A stretch of DNA of 64,000 nt from Gammaproteobacteria bacterium (GTDB lineage Bacteria > Pseudomonadota > Gammaproteobacteria > JAUZRS01), in assembly GCA_030949385.1 (NCBI GenBank), contig JAUZSP010000004.1:1-64000 (forward strand), written 5' to 3'. The notes below the pieces were generated by a model. It saw nothing but the letters and a program-made list of their open reading frames with translations. It was not told the DNA's origin and made no database searches. How positions within the stretch are numbered: position 1 is the first letter of the stretch; every line of letters begins with the position of its first letter. The position numbers and the translations under genes were made by a program. Positions 8,428-64,000 of the stretch are shown one piece after another.

Positions 8428-9321
8428 GTGAGTGATTTCAAACAACAACTAAAACGACATCAACAACAGAGCGAACAGGCGCTTCACCGTTTCCTGCCCA
8501 GCATTGAAACTCAACCCCAACGACTGCATGAAGCGATGCACTACGCGGTGATGAGCGGCGGAAAACGCATTCGCCCCACTCTAACTTACGCCACAGGTCT
8601 CGCTCTTGGCGTTAAAACTGACACCCTCGATGCACCCGCCTGCGCACTGGAGCTGATTCACGCCTACTCATTGGTACACGACGACCTACCTGCAATGGAC
8701 GATGACGATCTGCGCCGAGGCCGCCCCACCTGTCACAAACAATTTGATGAAGCCAGCGCCATTTTGGTTGGCGACGCGCTGCAAACCTTGGCCTTTGAGC
8801 TGTTGGCAGATCCAGACAACGCCCCACTCTACGCCGAACAGCGCCTGCGGATGATCCAGAGCCTCAGCCACGCCAGCGGTTCGCTCGGCATGGTGGGCGG
8901 TCAAGCCATTGATCTCGATGCCGTGGGCAATCTACTCAGCCAAGCCGATCTGGAGGCGATGCACCGCAAAAAAACCGGTGCGCTGATTCGAGCTGCCGTT
9001 CGTCTGGGCGCGCTCTGCGCCCCAAACATAGACGACCAGAGCCTCAAACAGTTGGATCACTACGCCGCCGCCATTGGCCTTACCTTTCAAATTGTCGATG
9101 ATATTTTAGATGTCACCAGCGACACCCAAACCCTCGGCAAACCGCAAGGCTCCGACATCGCCAATAACAAACCCACTTACCCCGCGCTGCTGGGCTTGGC
9201 GGGCGCACAACACCACGCCAAGCAGGTGCATCAACAGGCGTTAACGAGTCTGGAAGGTCTTGATGGCGACTTCCAAACCCTACGCTCATTGGCGGACTAC
9301 ATTCTGCAACGGCGCTTTTAA
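8428..9321 (+). CDS. ispA: (2E,6E)-farnesyl diphosphate synthase
   Basis: Condenses IPP with DMAPP and geranyl diphosphate to farnesyl diphosphate in the cytoplasm, feeding quinone, undecaprenyl and other isoprenoid synthesis. The 297 residues contain the first aspartate-rich motif DDLPAMD (85-91) followed by the conserved RRGRPTCH, and the second motif in FQIVDDILD (near 223-228). The start is GTG at 8428, three bases after the xseB stop. Together with dxs downstream it forms the standard isoprenoid-precursor cluster of gammaproteobacteria. Confidence 0.96.
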   Translation: MSDFKQQLKRHQQQSEQALHRFLPSIETQPQRLHEAMHYAVMSGGKRIRPTLTYATGLALGVKTDTLDAPACALELIHAYSLVHDDLPAMDDDDLRRGRPTCHKQFDEASAILVGDALQTLAFELLADPDNAPLYAEQRLRMIQSLSHASGSLGMVGGQAIDLDAVGNLLSQADLEAMHRKKTGALIRAAVRLGALCAPNIDDQSLKQLDHYAAAIGLTFQIVDDILDVTSDTQTLGKPQGSDIANNKPTYPALLGLAGAQHHAKQVHQQALTSLEGLDGDFQTLRSLADYILQRRF

Positions 9322-53332: not shown

Positions 53333-53847
53333 TCAGTGATTCAATAAATCGAGCAAACCCTGTTTTGCCTGCTGCTGCTTTTCTGGCGAGGCGTGATCTA
53401 ACTTGATTCGATTCAGGTCAATCCCAAACGCATCTTTCAGCACATCCACCATTGCCGCTTTGTTTGGTGCTGAAATCAATTGACTGCGAACCACGCCATC
53501 GGCATCCCGTTTCAGTTGATACGCCTCACCCTCTTCCAGTTGAGAGATCACAATGGGTGAATGAGTCGTGATATAAAACGTGGTATTGGGGAACAGTTTT
53601 TTCAGCAAAGGAATAATGTTTGCCTGCCACGTCAGATGCAAATGGCTTTCAATCTCATCAATTAAGACTATGCCCTTCACATTTTGCAACTGAGTTTCAA
53701 CAGAGTCTGAAACAGAGACTCCAAGGTTTTGGTTTTACCAATACCATTGCTGCCAATCAACGTGTAAACACGCTGCTCCGGCTGAAAATCCAGCTCAACA
53801 TCGCCCACCCCTTTCACCGCCTCAAACCTAATCTTTGCTCCCAGCAT
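53333..53847 (-). pseudogene. Remnant of an OLD/SMC-type AAA ATPase, collapsed by internal deletion
   Basis: From an ATG at 53847 the frame gives a standard N terminus with a P-loop (LIGSNGIGKTKTLES) and stops near 53680. In another frame the sequence continues with the Walker B region GIVLIDEIESHLH, the D-loop/H-loop segment FYITTHSPIVISQLEEG and a normal C terminus to 53333. In intact relatives of the AAA_15/AAA_21 type, many residues separate Walker A and Walker B; here they are only about 15-20 codons apart and out of frame. So the middle was deleted and the gene is dead. The C-terminal part alone could be read from an ATG at 53689, but would lack the P-loop. Confidence 0.75.
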
Positions 53848-53967
53848 CACTCATTCCCCAATCATCACAGATGAAATGCAGCCTAGCCCAAAACCCAGAG
53901 GATAAAAAGGCTTGAACCCAACGCCATTGCTCGGCATAGTAGCCCCACTTTTAAAAAGGGCTTTGAT

Positions 53968-55028: not shown

Positions 55029-55053
55029 GGGCGGAAAATGTTCCGCCCCTACG
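55029..55053. repeat. Short hairpin repeat at the cysS 3' end
   Basis: A perfect 8-bp stem GGGCGGAA (55029-55036) / TTCCGCCC (55041-55048) with a 4-base loop, followed by CTACG. The CGTAGGGGCGG end matches the repeats inside hsdM. The cysS stop codon (TAG, 55051-55049) is formed by this element. It may also act as a terminator for the cysS transcript. Confidence 0.65.
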
Positions 55054-56438
55054 CCCGTCGCCAATGGGTTTTACCCGCTGCGTCTTCCAAAACAATATGA
55101 GCCTCTTTAAGCTGATCCCGAATGCGATCCGCTTCCGCCCAATTTTTATCCGCTCGTGCTTGGTAACGGGCTTCAATCAATTGATCCACTTCGCCATCAC
55201 TCAAACCCTCGTCACTGCCCGCCGCTTGTTTGAAAAACTCATCAGGGTCGTTTTGCAAAATGCCCAATACGCCCGCCAATGCTTTTAAGCTTGCCGCCAA
55301 CGGAGCCGCTTCTGCCAAGGATTTCTCCTTCAGACGATTCACCTCACGCGCCATCTCAAACAGCACCGCCAACGCCTCAGGGGTGTTGAAATCATCATCC
55401 ATCGCCGCATTAAAACGACCTTCGTAATCGCTTTCGCTCTGCACGGCTTCAGCCACAGGCAGATCACGCAAGGTGGTGTAAAAGCGCGTCAAAGCCGCAC
55501 GGGCGTTTAACAGATGCTCTTCATCGTAATTCAGTGGGCTGCGGTATTGACTGGTGAGAATAAAATAGCGCACCTCTTCGGCTCGGTAACGCTCTAAAAT
55601 GTCACGCACAGTGAAAAAATTACCCAAGGATTTGGACATCTTCTCATCGTTGATGCGCACAAAACCGTTGTGCAACCAGTAATTAACCGTCTTGTGGCCG
55701 TGACAGCCTTCCGACTGGGCGATCTCGTTTTCATGATGAGGAAATTGCAGATCTTGGCCGCCACCGTGAATATCAAAATGTTCACCCAACAGATCCGTGG
55801 ACATGGCGGAACATTCAATGTGCCAACCGGGACGACCTTTGCCCCAAGGGGAATCCCAAAACGGTTCATCGGCTTTGGCCATTTTCCAGAGCACAAAATC
55901 GAGCGGATCGCGTTTCTGCTCGCCGATCTCCACCCGTGCGCCTGCGCGCAGATCCTCCACTTGCCGCCCCGACAATTTGCCATACTCAGCGAAAGATTTG
56001 ACGCTGTAATAGACATCGCCGTTCTCCGCTTGATAGGCAAACTCTTTTTCGATCAGTTCTGCGATCATCTTCAAAATGGAGGGCATCGACTGAGTGGCGC
56101 GTGGCTCGGCATCTGGGGGTAGCACCCCCAGCGCATCGGAATCGTCGTGCATCGCCTGAATAAAACGCTCGGTCAGAGTCAAGAAAATCTTCGCCGTTTT
56201 CATTCGCTCGGGCAATGATTTTATCGTCAATATCGGTGATGTTACGCACATAATTGACCTTAAAACCGCGATGACGAAAATGACGCACCATGACATCAAA
56301 CGCCACCATCACCCGAGCATGACCTAAATGGCAGTAGTCGTAGACGGTCATGCCGCAGACGTACAGACCCACTTCACCGGCTTTGATCGGTACAAAAGGT
56401 TCTTTTTTATTCGTCAGAGTGTTGTAAAGAGAGATCAT
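55049..56438 (-). CDS. cysS: Cysteinyl-tRNA synthetase, interrupted by one frameshift
   Basis: Charges tRNA-Cys. From the ATG at 56438 the N-terminal part contains the zinc/active-site start [20 protein letters not shown] (HIGH as HLGH) and [19 protein letters not shown]. The frame then breaks; the remainder ([14 protein letters not shown] onward, with KMSKS in [11 protein letters not shown] and zinc-site histidine and cysteine nearby) continues in the next frame to 55049. Removing one base from the A4 run at 56184-56187 gives a single protein of about 462 residues, normal length. Since CysS is normally essential, a sequence error or a second intact copy is more likely than true loss. The start overlaps the gltX stop. 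Confidence 0.9.
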
Positions 56439-57890
56439 GGGGCTACTCCTGTGTTCGTCAAGCTCAACGCCCGCTGTAAACGCTGTTCAACTCGCGTCTG
56501 ACCCAGCAGCGGGAAAATATGCCCCATCTCAGGGCCGTGAACCTCACCGCTCAAAGCCGCTCTCAGCGGCATAAAGAGGCCTTTTCCCTTCACTCCAGCG
56601 GCTTTGCCCACCGCTTTGGCAAAACTGCGAAAATCATCGGCCTCCGGCAGCAACGCCAAGGCGTTCTCAAACAGAACGGCGGGGCTGTTTTGCAGCACTT
56701 CTGTTGCCGCCTCACTCAACACGGGAGACGCAGAAAAGAACTGCTCTGCCCAGTGGTAGGCTTCCGCCGGTTGCGTAATGTTGGCACGCACGGCACGAAC
56801 AAAGTTGGCCAACAATTCCGCTGGCACACGCTCACGCAAAGAAACACCCTCTGGTTCATGAGACTCTAACCACACCAACACCGCCTCATCATCGGCAGCC
56901 GCCAAAGCTAATTTTTGCCAATGATTAAGCTGAAACTCATCGTGACGCGCCGGGGCTTTGCCCAAGCTACTGAGCTGAAAACCGTCACTGAGCTGTTGCA
57001 AGCTCATTAGACTCTCATCGCGGTAGTGATGCCCGAGACGCGCCAGATGGTTCAAAATGGCAATGGGGAAATAACCCATTTTGCGCAGTTCTTTAAGACT
57101 GCGTGAACCGTTACGCTTGGAGAGCGGTTGACCGTCTTGCCCCAAAATCAGCGAGGTGTGGCCGTACTGCGCTTGTGGCAAACCCAAAGCGTTCAAAATC
57201 ATCAACTGCCGTGGGGTGTTGGTGATGTGATCCTCGCCACGCAAAACACAATTGACCTGCATCAGCGCATCATCCAAGCGCATTGGCGAAGAAAAAGGCC
57301 GGAGAACCATCGGCACGACGAATGATAAAATCACCAATGTCTTTACCCGAATACGCCTGTGAGCCGCGCACCAAATCCTCAAATTCGGTTACAGAATCAT
57401 TGGCAACCCGAAACCGCAAGGTGGGTTGACGACCGTCATCCAAGCGCTGCTGACGGTCGCTGGCAGAGAGATGGGCGCATTTGCCCGAATAACGCGGCGG
57501 CAATCCCGCCGAACGCTGCGCTTTGCGGCTCAGTGCCAACTCTTCAGGGGAGCAAAAACAGGGGTAGGCGTGATCCGCCTCTTCCAGTTGTTGGTAATAG
57601 GTGTCGTAGGTGTCGCTGCGCTCCGATTGACGATAGGGTCCCAACTCACCGCCGACCTCGGGGCCCTCTTGCCAATCCATCCCCAACCAACGCAGATCCG
57701 CCATCAAGGCCTGTAAAAAGGCTTCTTTGCTGCGTTCGGGATCGGTGTCCTCACAGCGCAGCAGAAAAACCCCTTGCTGCTGGCGTGCATAGAGAACATT
57801 AAAAAGAGCGGTACGCAAGTTACCGATGTGCAGTAGCCCCGTTGGACTGGGGGCAAAACGAGTTTTAGTGAGTGATTTCATGGGGCGCAT
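56435..57890 (-). CDS. gltX: Glutamyl-tRNA synthetase, interrupted by one frameshift
   Basis: Class I synthetase for tRNA-Glu. The N-terminal half (from ATG near 57890/57881) has the HIGH region [20 protein letters not shown] and ends in [11 protein letters not shown]. The frame breaks there, and the second half continues with [20 protein letters not shown], the KMSKS-like PLSKRNGS and the anticodon-binding domain to 56435. Removing one T/A at 57276-57277 joins them into about 484 residues. The second half is rather divergent from common GltX (for example [19 protein letters not shown]), so it may belong to a variant subgroup. It overlaps cysS by four bases. Confidence 0.9.
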
Positions 57891-57959: not shown

Positions 57960-58676
57960 TTAACGCGACAACACCAACAACAAATTTTTGCAGTCCCATA
58001 ACATTCTTTCCGCAACTCTTGTCCACCCTGCCAACATCAGTTTTGAAATCTCTTCACTGGCAAGAATGGCCTCTATTTTAAGCAACACCTCATGAATAAT
58101 CTCTGCATTATTCAACACACCTTGCTGCCACTCCTCACCCGCCTGCATCAACCAGATAAAGTCAGATAACGCCTCTTTGTGTATTAAAAAATCCGCGTCA
58201 TTTTTTGCTAACAACAACGGTATTAACAGCAAATGATGGTTTTTTTTACCCCAAGTAGCGGGGGCAGCTCCATCGGTTTCTTCCTCAACCGCCACCACCG
58301 TCTCGGTAATCAGCTCTGAGCAATGCGACCATCGTTCTGAATAATCACCAGCCAAAGCCCCCAGCGCAGCCCAAAATTGAGGTTGGTAACGCAATAAATT
58401 TAAGCGATGGACGGGGAGATTTTCATCTATGGCATCGTCTAAAATTCGAGCATACAGATGAATTCGAGCGCAATGAAATAAAAAATCATTCACATTGTCA
58501 TTGTCGTTCTGCCACGGTTCGGCCAACCAGATCAACATCAACGGTGATTTATCAGCAACACGCTGCAAACGCCGCCGTGCAAGAATTTGAGTGCCGCTCT
58601 TCACCGACTGCGCGGGCATCAAGCATTCGATATCAGCGGCTATCTTTTCTGCTAGCTGGTCTTTTAAAGTACTCAT
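57960..58676 (-). CDS. Unknown protein with a DDxxD motif resembling the isoprenoid-synthase fold
   Basis: A 238-residue, almost wholly helical soluble protein, last gene of the dynamin-like cluster and 12 bases from the coiled-coil gene before it. The segment CARIHLYARILDDAIDE holds a perfect DDxxD (D80, D81, D84), in a helix context like the first aspartate-rich motif of class I isoprenoid synthases. A canonical second motif (NSE/DTE or DDxxD) is not seen; IWLMQAGEEWQQGV is the nearest acidic stretch. It could be an enzyme acting on prenyl diphosphates, or a fold reused for binding. The ribosome site is AAGGGAT. No firm family assignment. Confidence 0.5.
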   Translation of the reverse strand: MSTLKDQLAEKIAADIECLMPAQSVKSGTQILARRRLQRVADKSPLMLIWLAEPWQNDNDNVNDFLFHCARIHLYARILDDAIDENLPVHRLNLLRYQPQFWAALGALAGDYSERWSHCSELITETVVAVEEETDGAAPATWGKKNHHLLLIPLLLAKNDADFLIHKEALSDFIWLMQAGEEWQQGVLNNAEIIHEVLLKIEAILASEEISKLMLAGWTRVAERMLWDCKNLLLVLSR

Positions 58677-58688
58677 TTATCCCTTTTT

Positions 58689-59048
58689 TTAGGTGCAGAT
58701 ACTCTTTTTAGACGCACTCTCTTTTTTTGAGAAAAATTTACTAGCCCATTTACCCTCATGATTTAGAGACTTTTCTCTTGTAGAAAGATGCTTTTCTTTA
58801 TCCGTTAAAAACGCTTCTTTTTTCACCAACTCTTGGTGTTTATTTTTAATTTTTTCAATTCTCTCTGAATCAAAATTTTTTCTATCTTTCAGCAACGCCT
58901 TATTTTCAAGCATAAGTTCTGCATTTTGTATCTGCAATTCAGTCAAAAAACGATCACTCTCCTCTATTCGTTTTGTCGAACGTGCTAATAACAACAAATA
59001 ATCACTCAAAACCGCTGACACAGTCGCTTCATCTAAAAATAGACTCAA
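58689..59048 (-). CDS. Small coiled-coil protein C of the dynamin-like cluster
   Basis: A 119-residue protein read from a TTG at 59048, chosen because AAGGAG lies six bases upstream and because this start aligns its N terminus with the two upstream paralogs. The shared motif is FL-x7-VLSDYLLLLARSTKR (residues 4-27). A charged coiled coil follows (about 35-95), then a basic tail with KWASKFFSKK that could touch a membrane. An open frame extends upstream to a TTG at 59084. Function unknown. Confidence 0.7.
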   Translation of the reverse strand: MSLFLDEATVSAVLSDYLLLLARSTKRIEESDRFLTELQIQNAELMLENKALLKDRKNFDSERIEKIKNKHQELVKKEAFLTDKEKHLSTREKSLNHEGKWASKFFSKKESASKKSICT

Positions 59049-59094
59049 CTTGCTCTCCTTCAAGGCTGCCCTCCCCAGACCCAATAGATTAATA

Positions 59095-59454
59095 TTAATT
59101 ATTAAATAGAGATTTAACCTTAGAAAAACCCGCGATAAAGGGCTTTTTTATCTCTTTAGCCGACTGCGACAATATGTGATTTTTTATGTTTGAATTCAAC
59201 ACATCAATCACATCTTGATCCTCACTTTGAAACACCGCTTCCATAGGCTCCATCTTTTCTTGCAACAACACGTTATAGCGTTGTTTTTCAAGCAACAGCT
59301 CCTCTTTAAGCTCCTCGTTTTCTGCCCTCAGTGCCACTAACGCATGAACACTGTCTGTTTTTTGTGCCGAATAAGCCAACAAACTCAAATAATCATTCAG
59401 CACTTTTGGATCTTGATTTTTATGCAAAAAATCACTTAACACATCAGAACTCAT
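59095..59454 (-). CDS. Small coiled-coil protein B of the dynamin-like cluster
   Basis: A 119-residue protein from an ATG at 59454 (GAGGT upstream). The N-terminal motif is FL-x7-VLNDYLSLLAYSAQK (residues 9-32). A shorter coiled coil follows (about 40-70), then a linker and a basic amphipathic end KKPFIAGFSKVKSLF. It is the most divergent of the three paralogs after the motif. Gaps to its neighbours are 49 and 46 bases. Function unknown. Confidence 0.75.
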   Translation of the reverse strand: MSSDVLSDFLHKNQDPKVLNDYLSLLAYSAQKTDSVHALVALRAENEELKEELLLEKQRYNVLLQEKMEPMEAVFQSEDQDVIDVLNSNIKNHILSQSAKEIKKPFIAGFSKVKSLFNN

Positions 59455-59503
59455 AAACCAACCTCAGAAATAAGAACGCACAGCAAAACCATTAAAAGGG
59501 TAT

Positions 59504-59902
59504 TTAAGCCAATTTTTCTCTATTTGCCAACATTGACTCTACAATATCCAAACGCTTTTCTTTTATGTCCAAACGAGACTCTTTTACATTCAAATAATCC
59601 TCGCGTTTTTTAAGATAGCCTTCCTCAGAATCCAGCTTATTTTTCTTTTTTTGTAACATTCGTTTCCTTCCAGACAACACTCTCTTATCAAAGTTGTTTT
59701 TTTCTCTTCGCAGCTGCTCTTTTTCTTCCGTTAGCTTCTTCTTGTCTAGAGACAGTTGAGACTCTCTCATACGCAAATCAATCAGACTTCGCTCACTCTC
59801 TTTTAATTTTTTTGTCGAAGCTGCCAACAGCACGAGATAGTCATTCAAAACCTCTGCTACAGACGTATCCTGCAAAAAAAATCCAATGTTATTTCGATCC
59901 AA
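59504..59902 (-). CDS. Small coiled-coil protein A of the dynamin-like cluster
   Basis: A 132-residue protein from a TTG at 59902 with GAGGTG five bases upstream. The motif FL-x7-VLNDYLVLLAASTKK (residues 9-32) is followed by a continuous Lys/Glu-rich coiled coil to the C terminus, with a repeated heptad-like pattern (LKKREDYLNVKESRLDIKEK). The gene is conspicuously A+T-rich. It lies 29 bases after the dynamin-like gene, so the two are probably cotranscribed. Function unknown. Confidence 0.75.
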   Translation of the reverse strand: MDRNNIGFFLQDTSVAEVLNDYLVLLAASTKKLKESERSLIDLRMRESQLSLDKKKLTEEKEQLRREKNNFDKRVLSGRKRMLQKKKNKLDSEEGYLKKREDYLNVKESRLDIKEKRLDIVESMLANREKLA

Positions 59903-59931
59903 AGCAACACCTCTTCAAAAAATAAACAGCC

Positions 59932-62130
59932 CTATCCCTCAAGAGAAGCGATAACCTTCTGAACACCTTCGACTCTGTTTTGCAACAGCAGCAACTGCTC
60001 TTGCTGATGCTGTGGTGCCATCTGAATCTTCTCTGCCAAAGAGTCGATAGAGTCAATTTTATCCTGTAACACCACCTTAATCTCCTCTTGCCAATAGGAC
60101 TTACAGTGCTGCGCAATCAACTGCGTCATGGAGCGCGCCTGTTGCCCTAATGAATTCACATTCTGATCAACCACCTGCTGTCGATAATTTTTCTGCACTT
60201 GTTTGCGTTGCTGTTCTGCCTCAGCTTTCGCCTCACGCTCGGCATTCACAGCAGCCGACTCAAGCTGTTTTATTTTCCTCTCCAGTTGCTGCTGCTGTTT
60301 AAGATGCTCTTCTAAGGCAAATTCACTGTAATCACGCTGCTGCCGCAATTGCTCTAAACGCATCAGCTCCCTGCGTTTTTCCGATATTTTCTGCGTGTAC
60401 TCATTCAACACGCGGCGCTGCTCTGCTTCTGCTTCAGGATCAACAACCTCCCTACTTCTTGGTGCTGCATCAAAACTGTTTCCTATGCGTTCCCCCCAAT
60501 AACTGAGAGAGAGCTTCTCGGTAAAATTAATCACCGGATCCAGTGTTGATGCTGTCTCTTTCACTTTTTTTAAAGCGCCACCGACCACTTTTGCTGTTTT
60601 TAACGCCTTCGCTCCTGCACCAACCACCGCCGCTCCTTTGGTCGCCGCTGTTGGCGGTGCTAAAAAGATCAAACCGATGTCCAACAACGTACCCACTGCC
60701 TTGCCTACTTTGCCCGCAGCATTTGAACCTTCGACCTGCTGCAAAACACGCGGCAACTCCTGCTGAGCCACCGTGTGTTGCTCCATTTGCAGCATCTGCA
60801 CATCCTGACAGGCCGCATCCAGATCCACATCGGGAATCTGTTCTATATTCTGCTTTTCATCTTCGACTTTTGCTTGCTTCACCCGACACTCTTCATGCAG
60901 CTGTTCCAAACGCCCCGAGTCAAGAAAATCACTAAAACAGATCTTTTCTGGAGTCGGCAGATGCAGGTCAATTTTTTTCACATCGCCCATCAACGCACCC
61001 ATGTCCCCATACTGATTGGAGCTGCTTTCCAATTCGGTGGCCAAGGTTTTCAAACGATGTTGCAGTTGCTGATAGGCGGCCTCCAAAAAAATCGGCCAAT
61101 CCTTTTCCTGCTCGATGGCAGGCAACGCCTGCAACGCCTGCAACAGTTCTGTTTTCTCTTTTTCCACCACAGACGAGGTGCTTTTTTTCAACTGCGCTTG
61201 ATCAAGATTGCTTTTTTCATAGACACTCTGTTTCAACTCCAACAATCCGGCTCGTTCTGACAACAACGCCTCTTGCAAGCTCTTCTTTTGCTCCGCTGTC
61301 GCTGCGCCCAACACCTGTTTTTCCGTCTCCAGCTCCACCAGACGATTTTGTAAAATAGGGCTTAACTCCGCCTGAAAGCGACGCTCTCGAATAGCAGCAA
61401 CTTCGGCTTTCGATTGAGCTAAAAAGCGCACTATTTTGTCATGCCCATGACCGTATTTACTCACCCCCACCAGATCTAGATCCAAACCGGTTTTTTGCAA
61501 CAACGTCGTGCCCCAATCGCACAGATCCGGCGCTTGCTCACCTTCTTTAATGGAAGACTCGATGCCATCCCACTTTCCCACCACCACCATCACTTTTTTT
61601 CTGTTCTCTTTCACCACCCGCAGCAGATCCAGATCACCTTGCGTAACCCCACGAGAAGAGAGCAGATACACAATGACATCTGAGGCCGAAATTTGCGCGT
61701 TTGTATAGGCACGATGGCGTTGTGAAGTGCTGCCCAACCCAGGCAGATCAACCAAAATCAATTCACGTAACCACTCCGCTGGGTAGAGCAACCGCGAACA
61801 AAAACTGTTTTCAGGGGCTTCGGTTGTGTACTGCACAAACGCCTCGGCGCTGATTGCAGTACGCCCCCCTTGCACATCAAGCAACTCCCGCTGCACCTGA
61901 TCGGCATATTCGATAAACGTAGGCAATGCGGTGGCCTCCTCGGAAGCCGTCGGCAGCAGCGATTCACCCAACAAACTGTTGATCAAGCTGCTTTTTCCCG
62001 TCGAAAATTCCCCCACAAAACAGACGCTGAGCGGCGAATGAGCCAACACGGTTTTATCCGCAATACGGGCTATTTTTTCGCTTAAACACGGCAGTTCGGC
62101 ATGCAGGTTCTGTAGATCCATGTTGCTCAT
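59932..62130 (-). CDS. Bacterial dynamin-like GTPase with a hydrophobic paddle-like segment
   Basis: A 732-residue dynamin-superfamily GTPase. G1 is GEFSTGKSS (40-48), G2 the threonine of EATALPT (66-71), G3 DLPG (128-131) and G4 GKWD (185-188, in place of TKxD). The GTPase head is followed by long coiled-coil regions and, at about 475-530, a glycine/alanine-rich hydrophobic stretch (TLLDIGLIFLAPPTAATKG) placed like a membrane-inserting paddle. A second coiled coil ends the protein. The ATG at 62130 (GGGGGAT upstream) follows the upstream GTPase stop by four bases. Pairs of adjacent bacterial dynamins can form hetero-oligomers that tether or remodel membranes; this is the likely role. Confidence 0.85.
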   Translation of the reverse strand: MSNMDLQNLHAELPCLSEKIARIADKTVLAHSPLSVCFVGEFSTGKSSLINSLLGESLLPTASEEATALPTFIEYADQVQRELLDVQGGRTAISAEAFVQYTTEAPENSFCSRLLYPAEWLRELILVDLPGLGSTSQRHRAYTNAQISASDVIVYLLSSRGVTQGDLDLLRVVKENRKKVMVVVGKWDGIESSIKEGEQAPDLCDWGTTLLQKTGLDLDLVGVSKYGHGHDKIVRFLAQSKAEVAAIRERRFQAELSPILQNRLVELETEKQVLGAATAEQKKSLQEALLSERAGLLELKQSVYEKSNLDQAQLKKSTSSVVEKEKTELLQALQALPAIEQEKDWPIFLEAAYQQLQHRLKTLATELESSSNQYGDMGALMGDVKKIDLHLPTPEKICFSDFLDSGRLEQLHEECRVKQAKVEDEKQNIEQIPDVDLDAACQDVQMLQMEQHTVAQQELPRVLQQVEGSNAAGKVGKAVGTLLDIGLIFLAPPTAATKGAAVVGAGAKALKTAKVVGGALKKVKETASTLDPVINFTEKLSLSYWGERIGNSFDAAPRSREVVDPEAEAEQRRVLNEYTQKISEKRRELMRLEQLRQQRDYSEFALEEHLKQQQQLERKIKQLESAAVNAEREAKAEAEQQRKQVQKNYRQQVVDQNVNSLGQQARSMTQLIAQHCKSYWQEEIKVVLQDKIDSIDSLAEKIQMAPQHQQEQLLLLQNRVEGVQKVIASLEG

Positions 62131-62134
62131 CAAT

Positions 62135-64000
62135 TTATCCCCCGACCATGGCCATTTCAGTCAAATCCATCACGTCGCTTAACTCTTTTTTCGCCGCGCT
62201 TAACGTAGCCTGACAGCGAGCCACCTCTTCTTTGCCCTTTTCCAAAACCGTCTGTATTTTGGCACGATCAGCATGCTTGGCTTTGAGCGGCTGCATAAAT
62301 TCATTTTCCACCAACAACAATAAAGCATCCAACTGATCATCAAAGAGCTGTTTGATTGAACTGTCCATATTCTTTTTCAAAAAGGCAATGCGCTGGCTCA
62401 ACTCACCCAAGGCGCTCTGTTTTAAACTCTCCAGCACCTCAGCGGTTTTTTCAGTCCGCGCCTTGGCCTCTTTCTGCTCTGCCGCTGCTCTTTTTTTCTC
62501 CTCTTTTTCCCAGCGCTTTTCCGCTTTACGCCGCTGCACTTCAAAATTAACTTTTTTCGCGTCGTTGGCAGACGATTCTGCCATCAAACGCTCCATAGCG
62601 TCTTCGCGTGTCTCTAATTTTCCTTTGATTTCAGCACGCTCTTCTTTGTAGGCCGTTACGTTAGAGTCATCGTAAGATGTCCTTTCTCCATATTTAGCAT
62701 CACTGTACATTCCAGCCTCTTCCACTGTATAGGGTTCTCTCATAGAATCTGGACTGGGCTGCGAACCTAAATTTTCCAACTGCCGTGCTTGCCGCTCGTA
62801 GGCCGCTTGTGCTGCACGCACCTGCGCGTCCATATTCGGCACATTGGCCGCTTCTATCTCCAACTCATCCTTTTTAGCTTCGTGCATTTCCAACGCCTTT
62901 TCCAGCTCCAGACGTTTCTGCTGATATTCGATGATTGAACTCAAATTAACCTGCACATCCACTTTAATCTCCGGCAGATCCGGCGCAATGCCCACCAACT
63001 GCTGCTTCAGTTCTCCGGTCTGTTTTTTCATCTGCTCCAGATACTCTACTTTTAGATCCTGCAAATGACGTTCAATTTCGGTCTGCTGTTCACCCCACAC
63101 CGCATCCACCTCTTTCGTTACCTTGATGTAACGATTTTTGGCTGTACTGGGCAGAGAGATTTTCTTCCGCCCCGCCTCAACTTCACGCCGCACATAATCC
63201 TCTGTCAAGGCAATTTCCATCTCGTCTTTCAATGAGATCAAAGGCTGCACCAGTTTTTCCTGCACCGCCGCGATAATCACCTCAGCTGCCAAACGATGCT
63301 CCTCACGATGTTCACTCTCAACCTGTTTCATCTCCAAGGTCTGATTTTTAATATAGGCATCAAGAGACTCCAGTTCTTGCTCCTGCTGCTTCAAGTCCGT
63401 TGCCTCGCTCAACTGCTGCAACTGCGCCTCTAAACCGCTCAATATTTGCCCTTGAATCGTCTTTAATTTTTTCAGTGGTGTGAAAAAAACCTCTTTACTC
63501 GCATCACCTGAGCTGCACAGATTCGAGATACGCCCAATCAACTGCTCCACGCCCGAACGCCTTCTCTGCTCGGCATCCTCACTTAAAGCCCACTTTGCAC
63601 TGACCCCCATCAAATTATTTTTATCTGTAATCTGCTCTAAATCACTGCTGGAGAGATTTGGTAGATGTTTGGCAAAATTATCCTGCACAATGGCGAGTTT
63701 TTCCGCAACCCGCTCTTTTTCTGATTTTTCTCTGTCATGGTCATCCTCTGGCTCCAACACTTTATCCCACATGTTCACCACGGTTAAAAACTTGCGGAAG
63801 GAGTTCTGAATCGTACCGGTAAGAAACTGCCACTCACGGCTGTTGCCACCCAACTGCTCCACACTCTGCACCCAAATCGCAATGTGCGAGCTGGCAATGG
63901 CATCACGTGTGATCTCTTCATGGTGTTCAACCACCGACTCCAGACCAGGGGTATCAATAATCACCAAACCTTTATCCAACAACTCATGCTGCGCAAACAC
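62135..64000 (-). CDS. Bacterial dynamin-like GTPase, partner protein (5' end beyond window)
   Basis: The 3' 621 codons of a second dynamin-like protein; the G1/G2 part lies past the right edge. Visible are G3 in VIIDTPGLES, G4 in VVNMWDK and a helix-rich body with long coiled coils (about 200-420 and 490-600 of the visible part). No hydrophobic paddle is seen, in contrast to its neighbour, which suggests different roles for the two, as in two-component bacterial dynamins. It runs directly into the downstream GTPase gene with a four-base gap. Confidence 0.85.
   Translation of the reverse strand: MFAQHELLDKGLVIIDTPGLESVVEHHEEITRDAIASSHIAIWVQSVEQLGGNSREWQFLTGTIQNSFRKFLTVVNMWDKVLEPEDDHDREKSEKERVAEKLAIVQDNFAKHLPNLSSSDLEQITDKNNLMGVSAKWALSEDAEQRRRSGVEQLIGRISNLCSSGDASKEVFFTPLKKLKTIQGQILSGLEAQLQQLSEATDLKQQEQELESLDAYIKNQTLEMKQVESEHREEHRLAAEVIIAAVQEKLVQPLISLKDEMEIALTEDYVRREVEAGRKKISLPSTAKNRYIKVTKEVDAVWGEQQTEIERHLQDLKVEYLEQMKKQTGELKQQLVGIAPDLPEIKVDVQVNLSSIIEYQQKRLELEKALEMHEAKKDELEIEAANVPNMDAQVRAAQAAYERQARQLENLGSQPSPDSMREPYTVEEAGMYSDAKYGERTSYDDSNVTAYKEERAEIKGKLETREDAMERLMAESSANDAKKVNFEVQRRKAEKRWEKEEKKRAAAEQKEAKARTEKTAEVLESLKQSALGELSQRIAFLKKNMDSSIKQLFDDQLDALLLLVENEFMQPLKAKHADRAKIQTVLEKGKEEVARCQATLSAAKKELSDVMDLTEMAMVGG

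Follow-up and report, generated by a model that had tools for sequence, protein, structure and literature searches.

To our knowledge, bacterial dynamins have usually been studied as pairs, and we know of no cargo or lipid cue for them. The anti-phage system Eleos, as named in the PADLOC models, consists of LeoA and LeoBC. Among the described systems closest to the operon reported here, the LeoABC proteins of ETEC H10407, in which LeoA occurs with a split LeoBC, have been linked to vesicle release (PMC4159319), Cj-DLP1/2 of Campylobacter jejuni form a heterotypic dynamin pair for which membrane repair has been proposed (PMC6104087), and DynA of B. subtilis acts against phages at the membrane, where lysis is delayed (PMC8844932).

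The operon shares with LeoABC/Eleos the presence of tandem dynamin-like GTPases, of which two, DLP1 and DLP2, partially match the LeoA profile and one, DLP2, also the LeoBC profile, but it encodes three GTPases (the third is called GTPase0), none of them split, together with a family of small proteins (s1-s3) having a common N-terminal element (N-element), a protein with a DDxxD motif (DDxxD protein) and, optionally, Lcl_C/Hsp70-like cargo. It resembles the Campylobacter locus in its adjoining dynamins, the structure 5owv being matched by DLP2 (4.3e-12) and by DLP1 (5e-7), and DLP1 and DLP2 likely form a heterotypic complex as in Cj-DLP1/2, whereas the Campylobacter pair comes without adaptors, a third GTPase or a DDxxD protein. 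DynA is likewise a bacterial dynamin, but a single fused two-dynamin protein whose anti-phage effect is shown, whereas that of the operon is proposed; its NCBIfam model is matched only weakly, at about 23-27 bits where the cut-off is 1600.

The PADLOC LeoA model matches DLP1 (3.7e-19, 67.2 bits, best stretch 103-402 of 559 profile positions) and, mainly over the G domain, DLP2 (1.3e-12, 45.6 bits). The LeoBC model matches DLP2 only, again mainly over the G domain (1.3e-6, 25.8 bits, positions 49-186 of 601), and GTPase0 matches neither model. The match to LeoA places the operon within a known class. On the other hand, Eleos is a two-component system, and here seven genes are found, with the adaptors and the DDxxD gene kept in other genomes; the operon is best classed as a variant within bacterial dynamin systems rather than as Eleos. 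The original prediction knew of no described system with this gene set, which holds, within what was searched, for the accessory set but not for the dynamins, which are related to described systems. A literature search combining DUF1566 (Lcl_C), Hsp70 and dynamin found nothing. The number of GTPases above two is not unique, since runs of dynamin genes also occur on plasmids: three in a row on pFN9A of Lysinibacillus capsici (L048:5700-15957) and a run near restriction genes on a P. aeruginosa plasmid. Behind the run on pFN9A lie three genes without a family assignment, encoding 389, 581 and 89 aa.

Organization of the operon

The window, that is, the whole stretch of DNA analysed, comprises the first 64,000 bases of the 66,403-base contig C4 of a gammaproteobacterial genome. 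It contains six ORFs of the operon, all on the minus strand as predicted, with gaps of 1-49 rather than 4-49 bases. Instead of the two GTPases of the original prediction there are three, as GTPase0 lies just past the window end and overlaps DLP1. The features are, in operon order:

C4:64462-66042 (beyond the window end): GTPase0, third GTPase, probably dynamin-like, 506-526 aa, overlapping the start of DLP1 by one base
62135-64000 (cut by the window end), minus strand: DLP1, dynamin-like GTPase with Dynamin_N domain and no obvious paddle; complete gene C4:62135-64462, minus strand, 775 aa, from the contig read past the window
59932-62133, minus strand: DLP2, dynamin-like GTPase with Dynamin_N domain, 733 aa, with a paddle-like stretch from hydropathy
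59504-59902, minus strand: s1, 132 aa, common N-element and coiled-coil-like tail
59095-59454, minus strand: s2, 119 aa, common N-element and a tail of another kind
58689-59084, minus strand: s3, 131 aa as listed, common N-element and coiled-coil-like tail
57960-58676, minus strand: DDxxD protein, 238 aa, isoprenoid-synthase-like predicted fold, from homologs and model

The seven genes are separated by -1, 1, 29, 49, 10 and 12 bases; the true start of s3 is perhaps slightly downstream of the listed one. Upstream of GTPase0 the contig continues for only a few hundred bases, and a deposited relative breaks near the same place. A locus about 98% identical is present in a deposited MAG, Gammaproteobacteria bacterium isolate 12ROV5_HD12-AMOR20_M1286. 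Comparison with a close strain gives dN/dS values of 0.19, 0.30 and 0.10 for GTPase0, DLP1 and DLP2, respectively, and only silent changes in s1. The GC content of s1-s3 (36-37%, compared with 52% elsewhere in the window) fits exchanged cargo. Scanning the window for RNA families and tRNAs gave no hit, and its matches to promoters and terminators were no commoner than those in shuffled sequences.

Between close strains (L014:1581-3908 vs. L003:4636-6963) DLP1 carries 45 non-silent changes, some of them at or near G-domain residues 83-90, compared with 9 in DLP2 and 2 in GTPase0; diversification or local recombination are possible explanations.

Dynamin-like GTPases

The Pfam Dynamin_N family (cut-off 27 bits) is matched by DLP1 (E 3.7e-24, 86.1 bits) and DLP2 (E 5.3e-20, 72.6 bits), whose G1, G3 and G4 motifs read GEFSRGKS, DTPG and NMWD in the former and GEFSTGKS, DLPG and GKWD in the latter. 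Both match the solved bacterial dynamins BDLP1 (2j68/2j69) and Cj-DLP (5owv). GTPase0 scores 21.7 bits, under the Pfam cut-off, but its G domain aligns to the DLP2 profile with 96% probability over 155 columns (hhalign) and contains the motifs GAFSAGKS, DMPG and TRCD; its predicted model is of unusable quality (pLDDT 41.6). The division into a paddle-bearing and a paddle-less dynamin, made in the original prediction, agrees with the hydropathy profiles: residues 479-510 of DLP2 are hydrophobic and located at the expected paddle position, and DLP1 has no comparable stretch there. Neither viral contigs nor plasmids yielded close relatives of DLP1, plasmids yielded none of DLP2, and the phylum-wide search with DLP2 recovered the window's own genome only. 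The same genome holds another Dynamin_N match (G000:C2:75370-76002, 59 bits) in an 810-aa frame.

Small proteins with a common N-terminal element

The proteins s1, s2 and s3 are alike over approximately 45 N-terminal residues with the core VLxDYLxLLA, which bears out the motif predicted for them, and diverge behind it; s3 and s1 are 34% identical over 107 residues. Across genomes, the C-termini behind the N-element include Lcl_C, coiled-coil-like tails and a domain of unknown type. The fusion to Lcl_C is found in two genomes, L015 and G536 (Pfam E 1.2e-16 in the latter), and one C-terminal domain of the unknown type is common to N-element proteins of G536 and G443. The original impression that these proteins look like adaptors is thus matched by one N-terminus placed on differing C-termini.

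In the window's own genome the N-element profile detects only the three window copies, among 340 gammaproteobacterial genomes only its own genus, and in the 237 genomes of the L015 family it has clear matches in four, each time next to genes for dynamins or Hsp70-like proteins that belong to this type of operon. As the element is exclusive to the operon type in the genomes searched and joined to varied C-termini, it looks, at the sequence level, like a dedicated docking element whose ends can be exchanged, the docking itself being putative. Three weaker matches among the 237 genomes (E 0.004-0.01), two of them with internal stop codons, look like chance. Family matches of the small proteins to the RNase Y N-terminus, COG2p and DUF2278 were below cut-offs and resemble coiled-coil noise; the likewise weak PADLOC hints to Cas5b and PDC-M17A were rejected as noise.

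A protein of predicted isoprenoid-synthase-like fold

The DDxxD protein gave an AlphaFold model with a pLDDT of 87.4 and a pTM of 0.84. In a Foldseek search against the PDB all 15 best matches are trans-isoprenyl diphosphate synthases, the top one being a plant GPPS chain (probability 1.00, E 0.033, TM 0.50), and residues D80, D81, D84 and E85 do not vary among three homologs, forming a DDxxDE signature like the first aspartate-rich motif of these enzymes. The isoprenoid-synthase hint originally taken from the DDxxD motif is backed by structure prediction. The predicted all-helical fold (probability up to 1.00, but TM about 0.5 and E no better than 0.033) and the DDxxDE signature resemble those of trans-isoprenyl diphosphate synthases (FPPS, CrtE, plant GPPS small subunit), whereas the second aspartate-rich motif is absent from the homolog alignment. 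Inspected by eye, the candidate position reads MQxG[ED]EW, so that G-[ED]-E-W apparently stands for the second motif, and the Arg-Arg pair is apparently replaced by His-Arg.

No Pfam family, PF00348 included, is matched by the DDxxD protein. Searching its own genome with PF00348 recovered only IspA (window 8428-9321) and IspB, and the presence of both indicates that the DDxxD protein is not the housekeeping enzyme. Aligned directly with these two, it scored near shuffle level, without significant similarity, and sequence homology to them is accordingly not claimed. Searches of plasmids, phages and viral contigs gave no match, and a viral fold search no informative one. A safe statement, based on the model, is that the protein has a predicted isoprenoid-synthase-like fold with one conserved metal motif.

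Conservation in other genomes

The backbone order recurs in two methanotroph-group genomes, L015 and G536, with 45-54% protein identity, and parts of the operon are found in two more:

L015 locus: DLP1, DLP2, N-element/Lcl_C, DDxxD protein
G536 locus: GTPase0, DLP1, DLP2, three N-element proteins, a 204-aa protein, Lcl_C/Hsp70-like protein, DDxxD protein
G443 and G552 loci: parts of the operon, limited by the contigs

DLP1 is about 54% identical to its homologs in L015 and G536, DLP2 44-45% to three homologs, GTPase0 49% to homologs of the Methylococcaceae group and the DDxxD protein 49% to two homologs. The accessory set differs from genome to genome and may include an Lcl_C domain, an Hsp70-like ATPase and a protein of approximately 200 aa. 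The Hsp70-like assignment comes from nucleotide-binding motifs read in the sequence (DFGTSSTVVAYS, FDFGGGTADFDF, LAGNASRSP); for the Lcl_C/Hsp70-like protein Pfam reports the Lcl_C part only, and no match was found in the PDB.

Of 369 gammaproteobacterial genomes one has the DDxxD family, as do 2 of the 237 genomes from the Methylococcaceae family to which L015 belongs, and it always lies inside this operon. The co-occurrence of the gene set, left to be checked by the original prediction, was thus observed for the DDxxD family and the N-element, both confined to this operon type in about 600 genomes, and routine occurrence of the accessory genes away from dynamin genes was not seen in the genomes sampled. 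What is unique to the operon, within what was searched, is the adaptor family together with the DDxxD protein, and the operon has probably moved between lineages. As the gene order is kept elsewhere at 45-54% identity and the dN/dS values of the GTPase genes are 0.10-0.30, the arrangement goes beyond chance, and we are confident that the genes constitute one conserved system.

Genomic context

In G536, the genes directly downstream of the DDxxD gene encode a sacsin/TmtA-like (Tiamat-like) protein, DrmD (1046 bits) and another helicase similar to it, a restriction-modification enzyme of type IIG, PDC-S68 (1397 bits), and DruE-like and UvrD/GajB-like proteins. These anti-phage neighbours suggest that the operon may help cells to survive or contain phage attack. 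The downstream flank in L015 consists, by sequence, of modB/modC and proA, and that in the window of gltX, cysS and then a broken PtuA-like ATPase gene. A search of the neighbourhoods for defence islands, proposed originally, was hence positive for G536, but none was seen in L015 and only the broken PtuA-like gene in the window, so that a defence context is clear in one of the three fuller loci. A homolog of the Lcl_C/Hsp70-like protein is encoded on a plasmid of Acinetobacter piscicola with WYL, HerA/mad8-like, coiled-coil, HEPN, truncated dynamin and integrase genes as neighbours. Taken together, the context favours a defence role, short of proof.

The PtuA-like (Septu) AAA ATPase gene of the window is present in two adjoining pieces (53333-53850, minus strand) encoding 57 N-terminal and 118 C-terminal aa, and seems to be a remnant that has lost its middle part. 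Moreover, cysS and gltX are each split into two overlapping ORFs (window 55049-57890, minus strand); the splits look like frameshifts, by sequencing error or decay.

Possible function of the operon

The best explanation, to which we assign a probability of roughly 0.5, is a heterotypic dynamin scaffold that serves in phage defence and works with exchangeable adaptors and a subunit binding prenyl diphosphates. The three GTPases would form the scaffold, binding the inner membrane via the putative DLP2 paddle, and the N-elements of the small proteins would dock onto it. Their variable C-termini (coiled coil, Lcl_C, unknown type) and the Hsp70-like ATPase, where present, could act as sensors of damage or of invader components or as bridges to partners, and the DDxxD protein might bind, and perhaps cleave or form, a prenyl-diphosphate lipid with a metal ion, which would tie the scaffold to the state of the envelope lipid carriers. 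The most likely use would be anti-phage protection at the membrane by sealing and delay of lysis, like DynA of B. subtilis (PMC8844932), or alternatively shutdown of the infected cell. The defence reading is based on the defence neighbours in G536, the cargo homolog on the Acinetobacter plasmid, the LeoA matches and the low GC content of s1-s3; by itself, a defence function of the operon has in our view an even chance of being correct.

The same genes could instead build an envelope-stress or vesicle machine. Under chemical or lipid stress the scaffold would then repair, tether or bud membrane, with the DDxxD protein as a sensor or supplier of prenyl-diphosphate carriers, and the defence genes of G536 would be incidental. 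The link of LeoABC to vesicle release (PMC4159319), the membrane repair proposed for Cj-DLP1/2 (PMC6104087), the absence of strong defence neighbours at two of the three fuller loci and a prenyl-diphosphate link, which suits envelope biology, are all in line with such a machine; however, the very rare and patchy distribution, the variable low-GC cargo and the defence island of G536 are atypical of a housekeeping or general stress function, and we regard this explanation as possible but doubtful. It is distinctly unlikely that the operon is a divergent Eleos (LeoA and LeoBC) with unrelated passengers, in which the dynamins alone matter and act exactly as Leo proteins. Indeed, the matches of LeoA to DLP1 and DLP2 and of LeoBC to DLP2, which speak for it, are partial and do not extend to GTPase0, and, unlike passengers, the adaptors and the DDxxD gene hold their position in distant genomes and are found nowhere else in the genomes searched. 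Finally, that unrelated genes merely lie side by side would account for the differences in cargo among genomes but is contradicted by the same order in unrelated genomes, the one-base overlap, the gaps of 1-49 bases and the exclusive co-occurrence, and is extremely improbable.

Within the preferred reading of a dynamin scaffold used in phage defence, a more specific proposal would be a modular dynamin immunity in which the docking element loads interchangeable sensors (Lcl_C fold, coiled coils, Hsp70-like ATPase) onto the three-GTPase scaffold and the pseudo-isoprenoid synthase reads prenyl-diphosphate carriers as a signal of envelope attack; we consider it rather unlikely in this full form. 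Rare and compact, the operon encodes dynamins together with apparent adaptors and a subunit resembling a lipid-precursor enzyme, and it makes testable how bacterial dynamins are recruited and which membrane state they read. It also makes testable whether bacterial dynamin-based immunity is modular, in parallel to Mx and other antiviral GTPases of the dynamin family in animals.

Concerning the Acinetobacter piscicola plasmid, pYH12207-1, two adjacent Lcl_C/Hsp70-like proteins are encoded there (L045:17248-23061) in the WYL/HerA/HEPN/dynamin cluster by an integrase gene. PADLOC gave no name to the Hsp70-like proteins of this cluster, which is possibly an undescribed defence locus.
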